DNA of 64,000 nt from Lobosporangium transversale (taxonomy: Eukaryota; Mortierellomycota; Mortierellomycetes; Mortierellales; Mortierellaceae). The stretch is from assembly GCF_002105155.1 (NCBI RefSeq), contig NW_019028981.1, positions 434,001 to 498,000 on the forward strand, written 5' to 3'. Position 1 is the first letter of the stretch. Each line of letters opens with the position of its first letter. Below are positions 2,180-30,007 of the stretch, piece after piece. The notes beneath the pieces are model-generated. The model did not search any database and had not been told where the DNA came from. It saw only the letters and a list, made by a program, of their open reading frames with translations. The position numbers were made by a program, and so were the translations under genes.

Positions 2180-5100
2180 CACAGGATCTTTAACCTGCAT
2201 GTTTGTGTTTGTGTTTGCGTTTTTTTTTTGTGACACCATCACTATTAGATTCCTTTTGGCCAGAACTTCTCCCAGCACTGTTTGAATGTGCCAAATCTTC
2301 AACTCCAGAAGTACGCGAATCTACTTACAGGATCTTTGCGTCAGTGCCACATCTCATCGCTTCACAAGATGTGGAGGTCCTTAAAAATGTGTTTGCTGCA
2401 AGCCTCAAAGATGAGAACCTTCAGGTATTATATGAAATCATTTTATCTCTTCCCGCAGTCTAGTGAACGTGATTAATCTTTATTATTATTATTATTATTA
2501 TTTGTTTCTTTTCACCAACAGTCTAATGCCATGTAATTCATATGAATGAAACAAAACATAGGTTCGTCTAGCTGCAACAAAATCCGCAGCATCTTTCATG
2601 CTCGACACTGACCACAACACCCGTAATGCACTTATGCCTTTGATGCCATTTGTGCTCGATACCCTTAACAGCCTCATGACCGTCAAGGATGAGGCTGGAC
2701 TTGTGGAAGGTCTCGGCGTCGTGATTGAGCTTGCAGAGAACTCTCCACGACTTTTTCGTCATGTCCTCATGACTATGGTCCCCTTCATGCTATTGATCAT
2801 CAAGAACAAGTCCTTTGGAGACCAACCACGCCAATCTGCATTAGAGCTTCTACTTACGATTGCAGAATGTGCTCCTAATTTGATCCGCAAATCTGCTCCA
2901 GATTTCACGGTGACTCTTGTGCCAGTGATCTTGGAGATGATGAAGGAATTGGATGATGACGATCAAGAATGGTACGCAACCGATGATCAAAATGAAGATG
3001 ATGAAGAAGAAAATTATGTCCTTGGAGAACATGCCATGGATCGGCTAGCTCGCGCTCTAGGCAGCAAAGCAATGCTGCCGGTCTGCTTCCAATACATCCC
3101 ACAGTTGCTGGGCAACCAACAGGACTGGACAGCACGGCATGCAGGTCTTATGGCTGTTTCTTCAATCGCCGAAGGTTGTGCCCGAATCATGGAAAGAGAG
3201 CTGGCCAAGGTCCTCCATATGGTTGTGCCGTTCCTCAAGGACTCCCATCCAAGAGTTCGTTACGCTGCCTGTCACGCGATCGGACAGATGGCAACAGACT
3301 TCAAAGGCACGATGCAAAAGAACCACCATGCGTTAGTTCTCACCAATCTGATCCCAGTTATGGACGATGCCCCCCATCCAAGAGTCCGTGCTCATGCTGC
3401 GGCGGCTCTCGTAAACTTTTGTGAGGCAGCAGAGAAGCGTATTTTGGAACCATACTTGGATGCTATTTTTGAGAGACTGTTGTCGCTACTCAAAACGGGG
3501 ACGACGTATGTGCAGGAACAAGCCATCACAACCATTGCCACTGTGGCTGACAGTGCTGAAGACCGTTTTGTAAAGTACTACAATGGGATTATGCCCTTGT
3601 TAATTGATGTTCTTCGCCAAGCGACAACCCCCGAATACAGGCTATTGAGGGGTAAAGCGATGGAGTGCGCCAGCTTGATTGCGTTGGCCGTGGGTAAAGA
3701 TGTTTTTGGGCCTCATTCACAAGAGTTTGTCAAGTTGTTGGTTCAGGCTCAGACATCCTTGACCGAGCTGGATGATCCTCAAGCTTCCTATCTTTTGGCA
3801 GCGTGGGCTCGCATCTGCAAAGTGCTCGGACAGGACTTTGTCCCTTATCTCGACACTGTCATGCCACCACTCCTCACCAGCGCTGCACTCAAGCCAGACT
3901 TTGCAATTCTGGATCCTGAGGACGATGTTGCGTCCAAGTATCCTGCAGAGGACGGATGGGAGTTTGTTACTGTAGACGGCCGACAACTTGGTATCAAGAC
4001 GACAATGATGGAAGAGAAATGTACTGCTCTTGAGATGCTGAACTGTTATGCGCGTGAGCTTGGATCCGGATTCCGGCCTTATATTGAAAGGGTTCGTGAC
4101 ATCGCATTGCCTCTCCTTCGATTCTACTTTCATGAGGGAGTTCGACGTGCATCCGCGGCTATTCTGCCACAACTGATCTCTTGCGCTAAACAGTCGGAGC
4201 TTGGGGAAGACTACCTACATAATATGTGGAGCGGTATTTGTCTCAGAATGATTGATACCATGTCTACAGAGACAGACGCTACATATTTACATCACTTGTA
4301 CAATGCGTTCCACGAAGCGTTGGACTTCATGGGGCCCAGCCCTAGTCTCTCGCTCGAAATGATGGAGGCTTTCACAAAGGCAACCAAACGTCAGTTGAAG
4401 GAACTATACGCACGTTTGAAGGATCGTGAAGAGGCAAGGGCAGCTGCGGGATTGGAAGTGGAGGAACGAGTAGCGATTGAAGAAGAAGAGTTCAATGAGG
4501 AGTCTGTTTTGAATGAAATTTCGGGAGCGTTACAAAGCGTGCTCAAGTATCATGGCGTAGCATACATGGCCTCATTCCGAATGCTCACGTCGGTGATGAA
4601 CAGGTATCTAGGCTCATCCAACTTGATTGCACGTCAATGGTCCCTCCGTGTGTTGAATGATTTTGTAGAGTTCACAGGTCAACATTCATGGCCGGTCATG
4701 GTCTCGTTCCTTCCACAGATGCTCGAATCAGTTGTGTTTGCAGACTCAGCAGAGATTCGTCAGGTAGCCTGCTATGGTATTGGTCTTTGTGGACAGTATG
4801 GAGGCTCACAATATGCAGAAGTCTGTGCCGCGGCTCTGTCGTTGCTTTTCCAAGTGATCTATGAGCCTGGCTCCCGAGACCCCGAGAATATCTTGGCGAC
4901 TGAAAAAGCTATCGCTGCAGTGGCAAAGATTTGCAAATTCAATCATTCACAGTTTGATGTTAATGCGGTCTTACCTTCATGGATTCAAACCTTACCGATC
5001 CTGCATGATGAACGCGACGCGTCAATGACGTATTGTTATATGTTGGACCTAATTGAGGCGTAAGTGTTTCTCCCTCTTTGCTTAACTATCTGCCTATGAA

Positions 5101-22965: not shown

Positions 22966-23526
22966 TGTAGCGGTTTATAGAAAATGATGCAGAAAACTTA
23001 GTAAGTCAAAGTTCAATATCTTTCATTTTAACGCCTTTTGTCAAAGCCCAAAACAATGGGCTCAAACATAATCTTCATTGCACATTTATTAAACATATAC
23101 CGTTGCAATGCGTTTTGCGATGGGGTTAATTCTTGTAAGAAGCATGTTTAAGGGAAGAGGGGTTGGGATAACAATAATGGTGAAGAAGGTGAGGAAAGAT
23201 GAAGTGGGGGACAGAGGCTAAGATATTTGACTTGTTTATACGCTTTTTATTACCCCGAATTAGAAAAAGGACGCCACAGTCACAGGCAAGCGTGGCTAGG
23301 GCAGAATATATTGACTGTGGCCACAGTGGCTGGAGAGATTAGTATAGTCCGTCCCATTAAAAAACGAGACATTCCATCTATTGTAAAAAGAAGAAATGTA
23401 TTAGAACACAGAAATAAATAAATAAATATATTAACCAAGAAAAAAAAGTACTATCAAGCCAATACTTACAATTTTTTTAAGACGAAGGCCTTTCTGGACC
23501 TAGTCATGTTTGTAGTAGATTGTGTC
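22966..23526. other. Intergenic between mtSSB and the XPG-Fanzor gene
   Basis: Upstream of mtSSB and downstream of the XPG-Fanzor gene. No gene is visible. In known Fanzor and TnpB loci the guide (omega) RNA overlaps or follows the 3' end of the nuclease gene, so this stretch and the 3' end of the preceding gene are where one would look; I see no decisive structure by eye. Confidence 0.4.
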
Positions 23527-26500
23527 CTACTGTTGTTGCCGGCTTGTCTCTCCCCCTCCTCCTGGACCCAGCAAAGGTCCTTTCGGTGGTCTTGATCCCT
23601 CTACTCCTCCTCCTCCTTCATCTGAAAATTTCCTTTTTCTGATTCCTCCACTGCCACTTCCACCACTACCTCCCTCTCCTCCTCCTCCTTCCCCCGGGCT
23701 TAACAAAGGTTCCTTCGATGGTCTCGAACCCTCAACTTCCCCTCCTCCATCATCCGAGAATTTTCTTTTTGTGGTTCTGCCACTACCACTACCACTACCA
23801 CTACCTCCTACCCCTGGACTCAACAAAAGCCCTTTCGGTGGTCTTGATCCCTCTACTCCTCCTCCTCCTCCTTCATCTGAAAATTTCCTTTTTGTGGATC
23901 TGCTACTACCACCACCACTGCCACCACTACCTCCACCGCCGCCACTACCGCTAGAAGCTTGGCCTTGAGTTCCTCCGTCCGGCGGCATATATTTTGAGGT
24001 CGTTTTTGCTCTCTTATCTGCGACTCACAGACCCTTGCGATGTTCTCAGCACCAACAGCATCTCGATCAAAGTATGCTTTACAATTTCGACAGTACTTGG
24101 ATCGAAAAGGAACATTCTCCAATATACTGTCACAGTGAGGCCGTGGACACTTGGCAGATGTGTAGTATTCATGACAACCTGCAATGGGGTAGTCTAGAGA
24201 TTTTGCCTGTTCGAGCCAGATTTAATACTCGTTAAAAAAGAGACTCAAAAATTGAATGTCATTGATCAAGGGATTTTTTTTTTACCTTTTCAACAAGCTT
24301 CTTCATCAATATCCCATGCTTCGATACTTGTCCTCGGTTTGTCTTGAATGATCCTAGTCCAATACAGATCACCGCATTCGTATTGGCATCTCTTCTTCTT
24401 CCATTGCTTCCGCCCGCAAGCTTCAGAATTGCCTTGATCACATAATCAACGCATCCGTTCTGTGCTTTTCTATTATCCCAGCTATTCCGAACAAACCACC
24501 CGTCATTATAGAAATCGACAAGCGCCCTATATATAGTCTCCCTATTGTCGTCACTGGTCCCAGATCCACTGCTACTACTGGCCTCAACTCCACTGCTACT
24601 ACCGGTCCCTGCTCCACTGCTACTACTGGCCCCAACCCCACTACCAGAGAAACTACCTCCAGTACTTGATGGAGCTTGATTTAGCGGCAAGCTCATATAA
24701 GCGAAATACTGTGTTAAAGTAGGCCTTGAGAATGACGGAATATTGCTTTCAATCTCTGTAATTCCTCTTCTAAGCTTTCGCCTCTCTAGCTCGCCCTGAA
24801 ACTTCTTGGATGGTTTGTAAAGGTACGCTCTAGAAATCCGGAGGATCTCACGTTCGTTAGGTTTCCTTGGATCCAACTTTGCAATTGTCATCGAGTACCT
24901 CTCGCCTGGATCGATCCCAATGATAATGGTACTTTCGGGGGGAGGGCATGCTGCCTGGGTGTCATATTTAACTTCTACATTCTCGAGGAGACGGGATCTC
25001 TGCTTCCAGTTGATCTCACGCCGGGGACTGGGACTCACCGGGGACAGTGGATTTGTGCTCGATGTACCTTCTTCAGCTGCTTCTTCTCCCTCGTCGCCAT
25101 CTAAGAATGGTTCATCAACTTCCAGCAAGTCAATATCGCTGATACCCAGCAAGATATCGTCATCTTCATTTCCGTCGTCGTCTCCATCATCACCACCATC
25201 ACCTGCACCATGGCCTGAAGACGAGGATCCCTGCTGAGCACTTGAAGAAGCCTGGACTGCTTGAGATCTTTGAGTATCCGAAGGTTGGGCAGCTTGCGAA
25301 CCTCTACCTCTTTTTTGCTTCGATGTGTCATAGGCAAGAAGTGTTAGGGTAAGGCCGTTTGTAAAGAACGATGTCCGTAGTTTCCTTCTAGGACCATCAT
25401 CAGATTGCAGTCCAACGTCCTTGTATCCTTTCAAGGAAAACAGCTCCTGCAACAATATCCCCTTGTGGTTAAGGATCTTGTCCTCTGCAGCCCCCTTGGT
25501 ACTCATCTTTAGTTCCAACAATTGGGCTATTTCCTCTCGAACTGTTGGGTTAGACCATAATATATCCAGGAGACAGGCTTCCGTTAGGCAAAGAGACCGA
25601 GGCGAGAAAGCAGACGTAGGGAAATCCAGATATTTTTTGGCAGTTGCATTTTGCTCAAAAAAGAATTGGATGGAACTTCTTCCATCGCCTGGAATATCTA
25701 TGTCAAACTAGACATTATATTGAAGAAATGATTAGGAACATTTCTATAAACATATTATAAGATAACCTCAAAATATTATAATATTATATTTACCTGCGCA
25801 TTCCGATAGTGAGACCTTAGCGCTGCTTGAACAGGGACCATGACCATCCGAGACGACTTGCTGATCACCAAATCGGGATAGATCTGGTTTAAAGGACCAA
25901 GCCCTGTCTTTGCATAGAAGTTTTCGTATGCTTTGAGCTGGGACGGCTTGGCTACGTTCCCTTCGCCTTTTTTCTTCACTTCCCTGCTATACCTAGATAA
26001 TGGACTCATCACTCCGTGATACAACAACGCAGCAAGGCCGTAAATAAAGTCCCTGGTATCAAGAACTTCATCTAGGAGTTGTGGGAGATCAGCTGGATTG
26101 GATGGCCCAGTGGTAAGCAGGTTATCGATCCACAAGGCGCAGGCCCAGAAAGCTCGAATCCGTGCCTCATTCAACATTTTAATAAATGATTGAATGAGCC
26201 CTTGAATTGTTGCAGCAAGTTGCTCGGGATTGAGATTGGGATCGGAAGTAGAGTCCAGCTTGGCAACTACACATGTCTTTAACGTGCCCAGAGTTAATGC
26301 AACAGTGGGGTGGGCCCTCTTCAACCGTCGGTCCTCGGCAGTAGCCTCCTTCACTTTCCTGGTCTTATCAGTCTTTCTGATATACTTGGCCTTCCCTTTG
26401 TTCTTCTTTTTTTTCTTCTTTTCCTCCTTAACCTCCTCTTCTTTGTCATCCTCTTTTTTTTCCTTTTCCTTTTTTTTGGGGGACTTTCTTTGACGGCTGG

Positions 26501-27730
26501 AGCTGACGGGACGGTCGTGTTGTTTGCAGTTGGTCAGGTCATATTTCTTAGGGGAAAGTTCCTTTTTCTGGGTAGGGAAAACAGGCCGATAGCGATTCGG
26601 CTTTGCGCGTTTAGGGATATAGAATCTAATTAGGAACAACAATGTCAAGGGTTAGATGACTTTTTTTTTTGTATATGCTTTGGAAAATGTTCATTTGAAG
26701 GAGCTTACCTGGGTTGAGGTTGATTATTTTTATTCTGGTACCTAGCAGATATCGCAGTCCTCATTCTATCATGGTAATGAAGGAATCTTTCAGCGGTTGG
26801 TTGCTGCGAGGCCTGGGTTTGGATCCCACCAAAGAAAACATTAATTGAATGGTCAAACTGGCCTTCTGCAGGAGTTCGACGGCTACGGGCATGGACCTCA
26901 CGAACATATGATACCGTCAACTTTTCGGCATCAGTGTCAGTGAGCGCGGAGATAATCTCAGCATTTGTAGCAAGACCAAAGGTTGGGATATTTGGGGTGT
27001 AATCGTTATCGGATATAATGCCATAGACCAGGAGTTGACTGTTCCTTGAAAACCCAAGGGCTTGCAGGACCTCTTGTTTCTCATAGAGTGCAAACATGTG
27101 ATGGCGACGAGGGATTGGACGAAGAACTCTTTTTATAGAAGGATAGATGAGAAGGTCAGAGTCCCCAGACACAGCGATACTGGTTGGTGTACATTTGGCG
27201 GCAATACACACATCAGCCTCATTTCTACAATGGCAAATCACAAAGTTATTGTATCGACCGAATGGCGCCGCGAGCTCCCTCTTCTCGTTATGACTGAATG
27301 TGAAGAGCTGTCGAAGATTCTTTTTAATGGCAATCATATGGCTTCGAGATTCCCATTTGCCTTCATTGGACTTGGTTTCCATGTTGGCTATGAGCGTATC
27401 GAGTTTTGCATCCGCTGCTGTACGCTTAGCATCTCGGTCCCTATAGGCACGCGTTTTTTCTTCGCAGCGAGGCCCATCAATGTGTATCGTCACTGTGGCA
27501 AGAGGACCAAAGATCTTTCGAATGATACTAGCCATAGCATGGCCGCAGGCAGTGAAAGAACTCTGCCAGCTGAATCTCCTTAGGATGATATTATGTATAT
27601 CGCTGTGGAAAGTGCCAAGCAGATCCAGCTCAAAAGATGAATGGGGTTCAGCAGCAAGCTCATGTACATCAATCTCCTTTGGTGGCAGGTCTCTCCTTGA
27701 AAGGTATGAATAGAGTCCTTTAATACCCAT
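23527..27730 (-). CDS. XPG/FEN1-like nuclease fused to a Fanzor/TnpB-like RuvC nuclease
   Basis: Five exons (26709-27730, 25794-26625, 24286-25707, 24029-24206, 23527-23963) splice in phase to 1296 aa. Residues 1-~300 are an XPG/FEN1-type PIN-like nuclease: start MGIKGLYSYL, and candidate metal ligands D36, D85, E171, D173, D190, D192 and D241/D243 (in NEADVCIAA, SGDSDLL and ISDNDY). A Lys/Glu-rich linker follows (~341-440). Residues ~450-1152 look like Fanzor/TnpB: an N-terminal helical part, FFTNGLTLTLLAYD, RuvC-I in IIIGIDPGERYS (D884), a zinc ribbon (C1112, C1117, C1131, C1134) after EYYTS, and RuvC-III in YFDRDAVGAENIARV (D1141). The tail has three basic repeats. Fanzors are eukaryotic RNA-guided nucleases; activity here is inferred only. 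Splicing could instead yield two products, but no stop separates the halves. Confidence 0.82.
23560..23905 (-). repeat. Three-copy tandem repeat in the tail of the XPG-Fanzor protein
   Basis: The C-terminal tail has three copies of a ~28-residue unit of the form KRKFSDEGGGGVEGSRPPKG followed by LLLSPG, joined by Gly/Ser spacers of different length. Each unit begins with a KRK cluster like a nuclear localisation signal. The DNA repeats are recognisable on the + strand as repeated AAAATTTCC/TTTT and CCTTTCGGTGGTCTTGATCC blocks. Confidence 0.85.
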
Positions 27731-28276
27731 CTAGAGAAAGTATAGTGTAAAACAGTGCAAGCAATGTTGGTTTAAGCGGCTAAAGATTGAAGCTGAAGTT
27801 GTTAGAGTAGAGATAGTTTACCTTTAAGAAAGCAAAAAGTTATGATCTGTGAGGGGATGAGGGTGTAAGAGTACGGGTGAGAGCGCGAAAGCAATGTCGT
27901 TGTAAAATGAGAGAGAGAGAGAGAGAGAGGGAAAAAGAGAAGGAGGCAGGACGTATTTATAGGTGTATGAAAGAGAACGAAACAAAAGGCTGATGAATTT
28001 GGAACAACTCGAAACAATAAGTTTCTCAGCAACAAGTTTTAACTTTTTGGATTTCGAGTATTGTTTACAGCTCTTCTCCAATCATCTACATTTACCAAAT
28101 CAAGCCTTCGCCATGACAATCAACAAGAAATAAAAAAAACAGACTTCCTTACGTCCCCCCTCGGTATGTGTATCTGTCTGAACACGTCCTAACTGACATC
28201 CTCTCGACAATCCTTCCAAGGCTGCAGTGTTTGAATGTGTACAGGGAACAAAAGAGGTCTAGATACAGGCTCTCTT
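27731..28276. other. Upstream region of the XPG-Fanzor gene
   Basis: Presumed promoter of the minus-strand fusion gene, with a GA microsatellite at about 27908-27928 and AT-rich sequence. No gene is visible. It separates the intact gene from the head-to-head relic. Confidence 0.5.
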
Positions 28277-28800
28277 TGTGACATTGAAGGAGATCGCATG
28301 TTTCATGGCTATCAAGACAAGGTACCCCTACAGGCACAAGACAAAGGTATAACTCGGTTCAAACTCAAAGGAACGATTTTACCAATGGCCTTGTTCTGAA
28401 TCCACTTGCCTATGACACAGTCCAGACGAAGAGACAGCAGCAGTCTGACGTAGATGAAGAAGATCTCAGCCAGGAATTGAAACTTTCTCAAGGATTCCTT
28501 AACACGGCGTGTTTTAAAGGCAGCCGGTGAAGGCCTGATAGATGAAGACTACGCAAACATAAGCTGGAAGAGGGGCCCCAAACTTCTTGAAAACGTTGGA
28601 CTCATATTCCATGAGCCAGGGCGATGCTCATTTGCAAATACCACAACTACCGTCTAATGCGATCCTGGTATTGTTAATGCCCTTACGTTTTCTTCGCTAG
28701 ACCGTCACAACCCTGACCTGCGTCAAACGGTGAAGGTGAGAAGTAGGCTCGTCAACAGCCTGTGTGCCTTATATGCGTTGCACCAATGCTCACTGATAGG
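28277..28800 (+). pseudogene. Decayed Fanzor/TnpB-like relic
   Basis: Translating the + strand in shifting frames gives segments that line up, in order, with the RuvC module of the neighbouring gene. FKLKGT then FTNGLVLNPLAYDTVQTKR corresponds to KLRTSFFTNGLTLTLLAYD; NISWKRGPKLLENV (about 28557) to INWKQRSRLLENV; and DPGIVNALTFSSLDRHNPDL (about 28661) to the RuvC-I segment IDPGERYSMTIAKLDPRKPN. At least two frameshifts and a TAA at 28655-28657, just before the DPG motif, break it. The zinc-ribbon and RuvC-III end and any XPG half are not recognised. It lies head to head with the intact gene, starting about 550 bp from its start codon. The sequences are diverged, so it is not a recent duplicate. 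Confidence 0.72.
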
Positions 28801-30007
28801 TTGGGAGGAAAGACACCAAGCCGGCAACAACAATAGGATATGATCAGTTGCATATTTCACAGTACACGTGTTACATGAAAATTTATAATACAGACATACT
28901 AACAGCTCTATGCCCCATGGTGCCCGAGACAAACTTGCAGTTTTATTTTGATACAAATTTGGATAAATGCCCCATGGATGTGATGTGTGAACCCACATCC
29001 TATTCTCACTTCTGCTCCCTGGTTACTATTTGTCTGTCAAAAATTTTTCATGAGCTACTACAAACATGACTAGGTCGGGAAAGGCCTTCGTCTTGAAAAA
29101 GTTGCAAGTATTAGCTTGACAGTGCTTTCTTGACTAATCTCTTTATTTCTATGCTTGGTCTAGATGGTGTTTTTTTATGGGGAGGACTATTTAGACAACA
29201 TATAGACCCCACATATCCTAATCATAATAAATTGGTTTGGTGGCATTGTTGTAAAAAATATCTTTGCTTAAGGGACAGAAAGATAGACACAATCAGGAAA
29301 AGGCAGGACAAAGAGTGTCAACAAGATTGACAAGAGAAAATAGAGTCAAATAACCTTGACTACAAACAGCGCCATAGAATGTCAAAAGAAAAGATGGGAG
29401 CTTTATAGGTGAGCTCACAAACTGAGTTACCGGAAGACAAATGCTTGTTGTGAAAAGGGGAAAAAGATAAATGGCAAGATGAACTGCGGGTGAAGAATAA
29501 GACATGTGGGGAAAACTGAAGACTTTATTAAGAAGGAAATTTCTTTGGCTTTTATACTCGGTAGCTTCTAGGTGAGGCGGACCCGCCTATGACTACAAAG
29601 GGCTTTGCGCAAAGATTCCTTTAAGCTGGTTCGACAGATTAGTGGATACAAAATAAACTGAAATTAATTTTAATGACCAGCCACACCACTTGCAATAACA
29701 AGCGAGTCAATTGGCTGCCAATACATTTAAGAGTATTCAAAAATATAAGGGATCGCGACCAAATGGAACGGGCTATACTGTAAAACTTTGTTAAGATACA
29801 AGGTCTAAAGTGCTGATAAGCTACAATAGAAGCATCCTTCTTACAGGATATTCCACGTGACTATCTGTCACAAGATTCATGACGTCTATGGGGCACGCTT
29901 CACTTTTTCATCCCTCAATCATACGAATCGTCCTCTTTCTCTTCACTTTTCATTAACCCCTAGCACTTTAATCACCCATACACAGTACATTCTTCACATT
30001 TATAGCC
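28801..30007. other. Intergenic, no gene recognised
   Basis: AT-rich spacer between the Fanzor relic and the V-ATPase proteolipid gene. Short ORFs only. The last ~150 bp, pyrimidine-rich with CACTTTTC words, is presumably the promoter and 5' UTR of the downstream gene. Confidence 0.5.

Follow-up and report, generated by a model that had tools for sequence, protein, structure and literature searches.

A transposon gene of Lobosporangium transversale that fuses an XPG/FEN1/EXO1-type 5'-nuclease to a Fanzor1-type RuvC nuclease

Results

A single gene combines two nucleases

The window analyzed here is a stretch of 64,000 nucleotides from the soil fungus Lobosporangium transversale (contig NW_019028981.1, positions 434,001 to 498,000). 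It harbors, on its minus strand, a gene encoding an N-terminal nuclease of the XPG/FEN1/EXO1 type and a C-terminal RuvC nuclease of the Fanzor1 type; Fanzors are eukaryotic relatives of the CRISPR-Cas12 nucleases. No other long gene is present in the 6.4-kb transposon that carries this fusion, designated here the family A element. The existence of the fusion as a single gene, as originally predicted, is almost certain: homologues are continuous from one half to the other, and the introns are common to two transposon families. The best explanation as a whole, to which we assign a probability of about 0.5, is that an RNA-guided nuclease would aid persistence of the element and that the fused 5'-nuclease would process the break. 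The gene is organized as follows (positions in the window).

27730 to 23853, minus strand: gene, window copy, four exons, about 1,210 residues
26709..27730, minus strand: exon 1, XPG/FEN1/EXO1-type 5'-nuclease, residues 1-340 (open reading frame, fold and profile)
26626..26708, minus strand: intron 1, gtaagc...ttag
25794..26625, minus strand: exon 2, basic linker and helical middle region
25708..25793, minus strand: intron 2, GT..AG, position identical in family B
24286..25707, minus strand: exon 3, presumed WED-like part, RuvC-I (D884 at 24910-24912) and RuvC-II region
24207..24285, minus strand: intron 3, GT..AG, position identical in family B
23853..24206, minus strand: exon 4, E1105, zinc ribbon, RuvC-III, and, in the window copy, frame-shifted tail and stop
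23527..24010, minus strand: tail of KRKF repeats rich in Gly/Ser, frame kept in 11 of 14 other copies and lost in the window copy

The open reading frames, their coordinates, and the GT..AG introns at 26626-26708, 25708-25793, and 24207-24285 agreed with the original prediction. The five exons and 1296 residues that it had proposed gave way to four exons followed by a frame-shifted low-complexity tail. GT/AG pairs are present where the fifth exon had been placed, but 11 of the 14 other copies of the element need no intron there, exon 4 continuing from RuvC-III directly into the Gly/Ser/KRKF tail (with a further frame shift close to the end of the tail in L022). A one-base difference common to the window copy and L033 takes the tail out of frame in both, and different indels shift it in L027 and L030. 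The open reading frame of the window copy consequently stops at 23853, after about 1,210 residues.

The junction at intron 1 (26626-26708) is spliced alike in the annotated L. transversale protein P0005, and homologues align continuously across it. The model of P0005 starts within exon 1 and does not include the nuclease half, but it joins the final residues of exon 1 to exon 2 over this intron. In the 14 other family A copies, the donor of intron 1 is always retained, the acceptor is retained in 13 (it could not be resolved in L034), and exon 1 is full length without gaps in 13. Exon 2, which is conserved in the homologues P0001, P0003, and P0006, opens with conserved sequence and has no methionine codon near its start.

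As the original prediction had proposed to check, the domain pair was sought in relatives and found fused in annotated proteins of Benniella (P0001 and P0002), Podila (P0003), Mortierella alpina (P0004), and M. antarctica (P0006). P0003 (1,260 residues) and P0004 are complete, including the zinc ribbon. The L. transversale genome itself contains about a dozen further copies, designated family B, that are only about 32% identical to family A over exon 1. In the six copies examined, the order of the domains (XPG half, linker, RuvC half) is identical to that of family A but the transposon ends are different. GT..AG introns occupy the same three places, intron 1 being present in five of the six; in L040, a deletion across intron 1 joins the middle region to the XPG half in one frame of 512 residues (2501-4027). 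Judged from these comparisons, the fusion is an old, conserved lineage in Mortierellaceae.

Pairing of the two halves was also evident genome-wide in counts based on 85 of the 105 XPG matches. An XPG match was found at most 6 kb upstream and on the same strand for 40 of 69 TNB-domain matches, with a chance expectation of about 0.6% each. Of the 32 XPG matches that are nearly full length, 22 had a downstream TNB match. No partner was found within 6 kb for 29 of the 69 TNB matches and 10 of the 32 XPG matches; some of these partnerless matches are known copies of family A or B, among them C14 (L036) and C66 (L038), two copies in which the RuvC exon is present. The Fanzor-like gene at about 2706-3548 of L043 (G000:C106:390900-394900) showed no XPG match in the approximately 2.4 kb upstream. 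Fanzor genes devoid of an XPG half therefore probably coexist in this genome, unless the XPG half has decayed at L043. Pattern searches of viral contigs returned 31 matches, none of which was confirmed as a relative.

The N-terminal half has the fold and active site of EXO1 and FEN1

The residues proposed to coordinate metal ions in the N-terminal half, D36, D85, E171, D173, D190, D192, and D243, were all present and were invariant in the six XPG-bearing proteins aligned.

27623..27625, minus strand: D36, metal ligand, invariant in 6 of 6
27476..27478, minus strand: D85, metal ligand, invariant in 6 of 6
27434..27457, minus strand: K92 and R99, 7 and 14 residues past D85, invariant in 6 of 6
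27212..27220, minus strand: E171 and D173, NEAD, aligned with YEAD of EXO1
27155..27163, minus strand: D190 and D192, GDSD
27002..27004, minus strand: D243, DNDY

The seven acidic ligands did not vary among the six rows of each of two alignments, at 22-42% identity; two family B copies that are not among these rows have Asn in place of D192. The fold of exon 1 best matched those of EXO1 and FEN1, with about 11-18% sequence identity, and the EAD, DSD, and DY motifs followed EXO1 in the profile alignment. The spacing of K92 and R99 equals that of FEN1 K93 and R100 from D86, which we take to reflect the role of gateway lysine and arginine. Entries of the fold search included those named FEN1 R100A/D86N and EXO1 R92A. 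By its fold and its active-site residues, the N-terminal half belongs to the FEN1/EXO1/XPG superfamily.

The C-terminal half is a Fanzor1-type RuvC nuclease

24168-24170, minus strand: catalytic E1105, relocated E just ahead of the zinc ribbon
within exon 4, minus strand: zinc-ribbon Cys 1112/1117/1131/1134, motif TSAKC..C..C..C..RD
24060-24062, minus strand: RuvC-III D1141, FDRDA

RuvC-I (GIDPG, with D884), the four-cysteine ribbon, and RuvC-III (FDRDA, with D1141) were present as predicted, and exon 4 of the window scored 28.9 bits against Pfam PF07282, above the cut-off of 26.3. The catalytic set D884, E1105, and D1141 displays the Fanzor1 pattern of D, relocated E, and D. In the RuvC profile, which matched a mimivirus Fanzor2 (5.2e-7) and SpuFz1, the Fanzor1 of Spizellomyces punctatus (4.4e-5), E1105 aligned with SpuFz1 E541 and D1141 with SpuFz1 D606, in a numbering for which the chain offset was worked out by hand. 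E541, D606, and D383 are metal ligands of SpuFz1 according to its description (PMC10432273). The Fanzor1 motif given in PMC3627910 consists of [TS][TS]xx, a C4 zinc ribbon, and then RD. A structure model of the RuvC part of P0008 matched SpuFz1 best, the next Fanzor being PpFz (Parasitella parasitica). Thus, as its residues and these matches indicate, the C-terminal half is a Fanzor1-type RuvC nuclease with complete active-site residues. Exon 2 and the middle region are presumed to form the REC/WED part.

The gene is carried by a mobile element of probable mariner type

The transposon context of the gene and the existence of 14 other near-identical copies had been overlooked in the original prediction.

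23345..29775, minus strand: family A element proper, TAG...CTA, TA on both flanks; copies align between these ends
29762..29777, minus strand: left terminal repeat TATAGCCCGTTCCATT, gene 5' side, includes TA 29776-29777
23343..23358, plus strand: right terminal repeat TATAGTCCGTCCCATT, includes TA 23343-23344; 14 of 16 bases match the left repeat
28200..28747, plus strand: internal fragment, 85-86% identical to a stretch of family B exon 3, in the opposite orientation to the gene

Exon 1 had 105 matches in the 42.7-Mb genome, including 14 places besides the window that were 97-100% identical. All 14 copies aligned with the window from about 29.78 to about 23.34 kb and then stopped, some being internally gapped or devoid of the left end. 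The terminal repeats are 16 bp long and inverted, with two mismatches. Among the 15 copies, the left border was resolved in 12, of which 11 have the dinucleotide TA, and the right border in 14, of which 12 have it. The pattern of the left end, with two mismatches allowed, had 128 matches in the genome versus none for the reversed control.

No DDE transposase was seen in the family A element, and the region 27731-29775 contains no stop-to-stop frame of more than 99 residues; from its sequence, the element looks non-autonomous. A 7.0-kb element found elsewhere in the genome (L041, G000:C37:189776-196959) has terminal inverted repeats of about 1.36 kb and a frame of 621 residues with sub-threshold matches to the Pfam families HTH_Tnp_Tc3_2 and DDE_3. 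The first 21 bases of its ends, both inverted, are common with the left end of family A, with one mismatch. L041 and a second copy, L042, are 99.7% identical, and this element was therefore recently active. A Tc1/mariner-like DDE element of this kind probably moves family A in trans and would be the likely source of transposase, and a mariner-type platform for the fusion is likely. Participation of the XPG half as the transposition enzyme was considered less likely, given the DDE-type protein of another element that has this end in common with family A.

The family B exon 3 fragment located upstream of the family A gene indicates that DNA of the two families has mixed. An inverted repeat of about 75 bp (window 29055-29128 and 23442-23518, about 89% identical) lies about 650 bp in from the left end and about 100 bp in from the right end.

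A single base ahead of the left TA is specific to each family

29776..29779, minus strand: TAM-like left-flank motif AGTA, G ahead of TA
23345..23419, minus strand: candidate guide-RNA scaffold, right end, weak hairpin GUCUC...GGGAC

In family A, G preceded TA in 20 of the 22 family-A-type left ends listed (from a listing of 100 of 107 pattern matches) versus 5 of 28 right ends, and in all 12 gene-bearing copies with a resolved left end, the window included. In family B, the corresponding base was C, in 16 of 19 left ends versus 6 of 34 right ends. Both biases persisted when each flank 5-mer was counted once (12/13 versus 5/27, P = 1e-5, for family A; 14/17 versus 6/30, P = 5e-5, for family B). 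These flank lists consist mostly of ends that were not checked for an attached gene. According to PMC10432273, the elements encoding SpuFz1 have two conserved bases, CA, upstream of their left repeat, and the target-adjacent motif (TAM) of SpuFz1 is CATA. Because the left-only flank base resembles this footprint of CA and TA, AGTA and ACTA are predicted, by analogy, to be the TAMs of families A and B, respectively. The geometry, with the left flank and TA as TAM and the right flank as target, fits, and RNA-guided cutting with a left-flank TAM is somewhat favored.

The flank signature could alternatively stem from a target preference of the transposase itself, exerted at an asymmetric transpososome, and this counts against its reading as a TAM. 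The TA borders are those of DDE-type mariner elements, and the two ends of the element differ in sequence, both as expected for such a preference. However, G was found ahead of TA in only 25 of 78 other ends (TTTC-type), which include those of the DDE element, and family B, whose ends are different, has C instead. We consider target choice unlikely, although it is the strongest of the alternatives.

Copies are partly decayed but show signs of constraint

The ratio of nonsynonymous to synonymous substitutions (dN/dS) of unique variants, computed without correction for transition bias, ranged from 0.35 to 0.67 across exons. It was significant for family A exon 3 (P = 7e-6), family B exon 1 (P = 0.0035), and family B exon 3 (P = 0.008), and not significant for family A exons 1, 2, and 4 or family B exon 2. 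In family A exon 3, the significance derives from the sequence ahead of RuvC-I. The unique variants included premature stops, one in family A exon 2, two in family A exon 3, and two in family B exon 3; none was found in exon 1 of either family. Taken together, these comparisons provide moderate evidence for constraint on the fused gene.

The element may also be selfish and partly decayed, with both nucleases as dispensable passengers of a mariner transposase. The many fragments, the small indels in exons 2 and 3 of several family A copies and in the tail, the premature stops, and the copies with a deleted RuvC part all conform to this possibility, as does the common end of the element encoding a DDE-type protein. 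It is less easily reconciled with an exon 1 that is free of gaps in 13 of 14 copies and of stop variants in either family, with the dN/dS ratios, or with catalytic residues that remain invariant at 22-42% identity, and we regard it as rather improbable. The deleted copies, L022, L025, and L026, have all lost the same stretch of about 0.56 kb from the RuvC part, the XPG exon being still open. Since these copies (3 of 14) still spread, the RuvC half is dispensable in cis. The three copies look as if an XPG-only version had spread.

Discussion

In the mechanism that we favor, the Fanzor half would load an RNA that extends from the right end of the element into the flank, as for SpuFz1, whose RNA runs some 15 nt past that end. 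This half would recognize as TAM the left flank and TA (AGTA in family A, ACTA in family B), the right flank being the target, and would cut the site emptied by excision or an empty allele. Recombination would then restore or copy the element. The fused 5'-nuclease would process the break by trimming 5' ends or flaps in the manner of EXO1 and FEN1, such that copying from the element-bearing template is favored. Within this scheme, the end-processing role of the XPG half is tentative. The same holds for the broader proposal of a natural RNA-guided nuclease with built-in EXO1/FEN1-like end processing, acting as a transposon retention or homing machine with family-specific TAMs.

Several observations weigh against this explanation or parts of it. 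The Pfam search suggested in the original prediction placed only one of the two halves above cut-off: in contrast to PF07282, the XPG models scored below their cut-offs (XPG_I, 13.9 bits for window exon 1 versus 24.9; XPG_I_2, 18.6 bits for P0004 versus 24.2), and XPG_N returned no match, so that membership holds for the fold-level superfamily and not for the Pfam XPG families. The equivalent of D192 in exon 1 is Asn in two of the six family B copies (L037 and L038). Structure prediction returned low confidence for the middle of the Fanzor half. Constraint was not significant for the RuvC part of family A exon 3 (P = 0.073) or for family A exon 1 (P = 0.052), and RuvC-deleted copies still spread. 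Folding, used to look for a guide RNA, yielded only the right-end hairpin of family A, which is weak (z = -2.04; 7 of 200 shuffles equally good) and has no counterpart in family B (z = 0.20). The link to the transposase is made by a short common end and sub-threshold Pfam matches. Not all annotated relatives are complete: P0001 and P0006 stop short of the zinc ribbon, P0002 is devoid of the middle region, and P0007, P0008, and P0009 are devoid of the XPG half, P0007 being encoded on a contig of 1,977 bases and P0008 being marked partial, which P0009 is not.

The XPG half might instead process RNA, trimming the 5' side of the guide-RNA precursor of the element as do the related 5'-exonucleases XRN1 and Rat1. 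Longer transcripts are the presumed precursors from which Fanzor guide RNAs are cut, and XRN1/Rat1 chains appeared in the fold search, although at ranks 45 and 48-50, under EXO1 and FEN1. The latter enzymes provided the best folds, the EAD, DSD, and DY motifs follow EXO1, and SpuFz1, whose described domains include no XPG half, binds a defined RNA (PMC10432273). RNA processing thus appears quite improbable. Finally, the merging by gene prediction of two adjacent transposon genes that yield no fused protein is highly implausible: the start of P0005 inside exon 1 and the proteins P0007, P0008, and P0009 would agree with it, but it is rejected on the basis of the continuous homologues, annotated as fused in Benniella, Podila, M. 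alpina, and M. antarctica, and of the introns shared by families A and B, P0005 moreover splicing across intron 1 and exon 2 opening with conserved sequence and no nearby start codon.

The pairing of the two halves could couple guided cutting of DNA to processing of the end thus created. Should both halves be active, nature has already built a guided nuclease fused to a break-shaping nuclease of the kind that engineers assemble by hand. How Fanzors help transposons is, to our knowledge, still an open question. The fusion offers a direct route to it, as break processing is what the fused domain suggests and as two matched families differ in their predicted TAMs.

The original prediction had presented the architecture as new. 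No description was found among open-licence PMC papers, but the pair is conserved in relatives and is not unique to this gene. In that literature, no paper was found combining Fanzor with XPG, Mortierella, or Mucoromycota. A few papers, judged by titles and the beginnings of abstracts, contain Fanzor together with either flap endonuclease or EXO1, or contain both TnpB and XPG. The terms XPG, FEN1, fusion, N-terminal, Mucoromycota, and Mortierell do not occur in PMC10711439.

Among known systems, EXO1, FEN1, XPG/Rad2, and GEN1 have the same fold, the seven metal ligands, and the gateway Lys/Arg spacing of the XPG half. Unlike these enzymes, the XPG half is encoded by a transposon, fused to a Fanzor, and only about 11-18% identical. 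SpuFz1, carried by Spu-1 elements, is described in PMC10432273 with REC, WED, RuvC, and NUC domains only, thus without an XPG half, and with a locus of about 2.1 kb as compared with 6.4 kb for the family A element. Its guide RNA and cleavage were demonstrated (PMC10432273), whereas those of the fused protein are predictions. The chain of PpFz (PDB 9cf0/9cf1) was not among the 26 sequences matched by the fused-protein profile at E values up to 10. A parallel in context is provided by the mariner-type elements of Bao and Jurka (2013), which likewise carry Fanzor1 as cargo and are flanked by TA; in PMC3627910, some encode Fanzor1 only, XPG is not mentioned, and PGv-1 carries a GIY-YIG nuclease that is separate, not fused. 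The presence of Fanzor1 in mariner-type elements was thus already known (PMC3627910). The fused XPG half appears to be the new part, and the conserved base found only on the left, (A)G or (A)C before TA according to the family, is new here.

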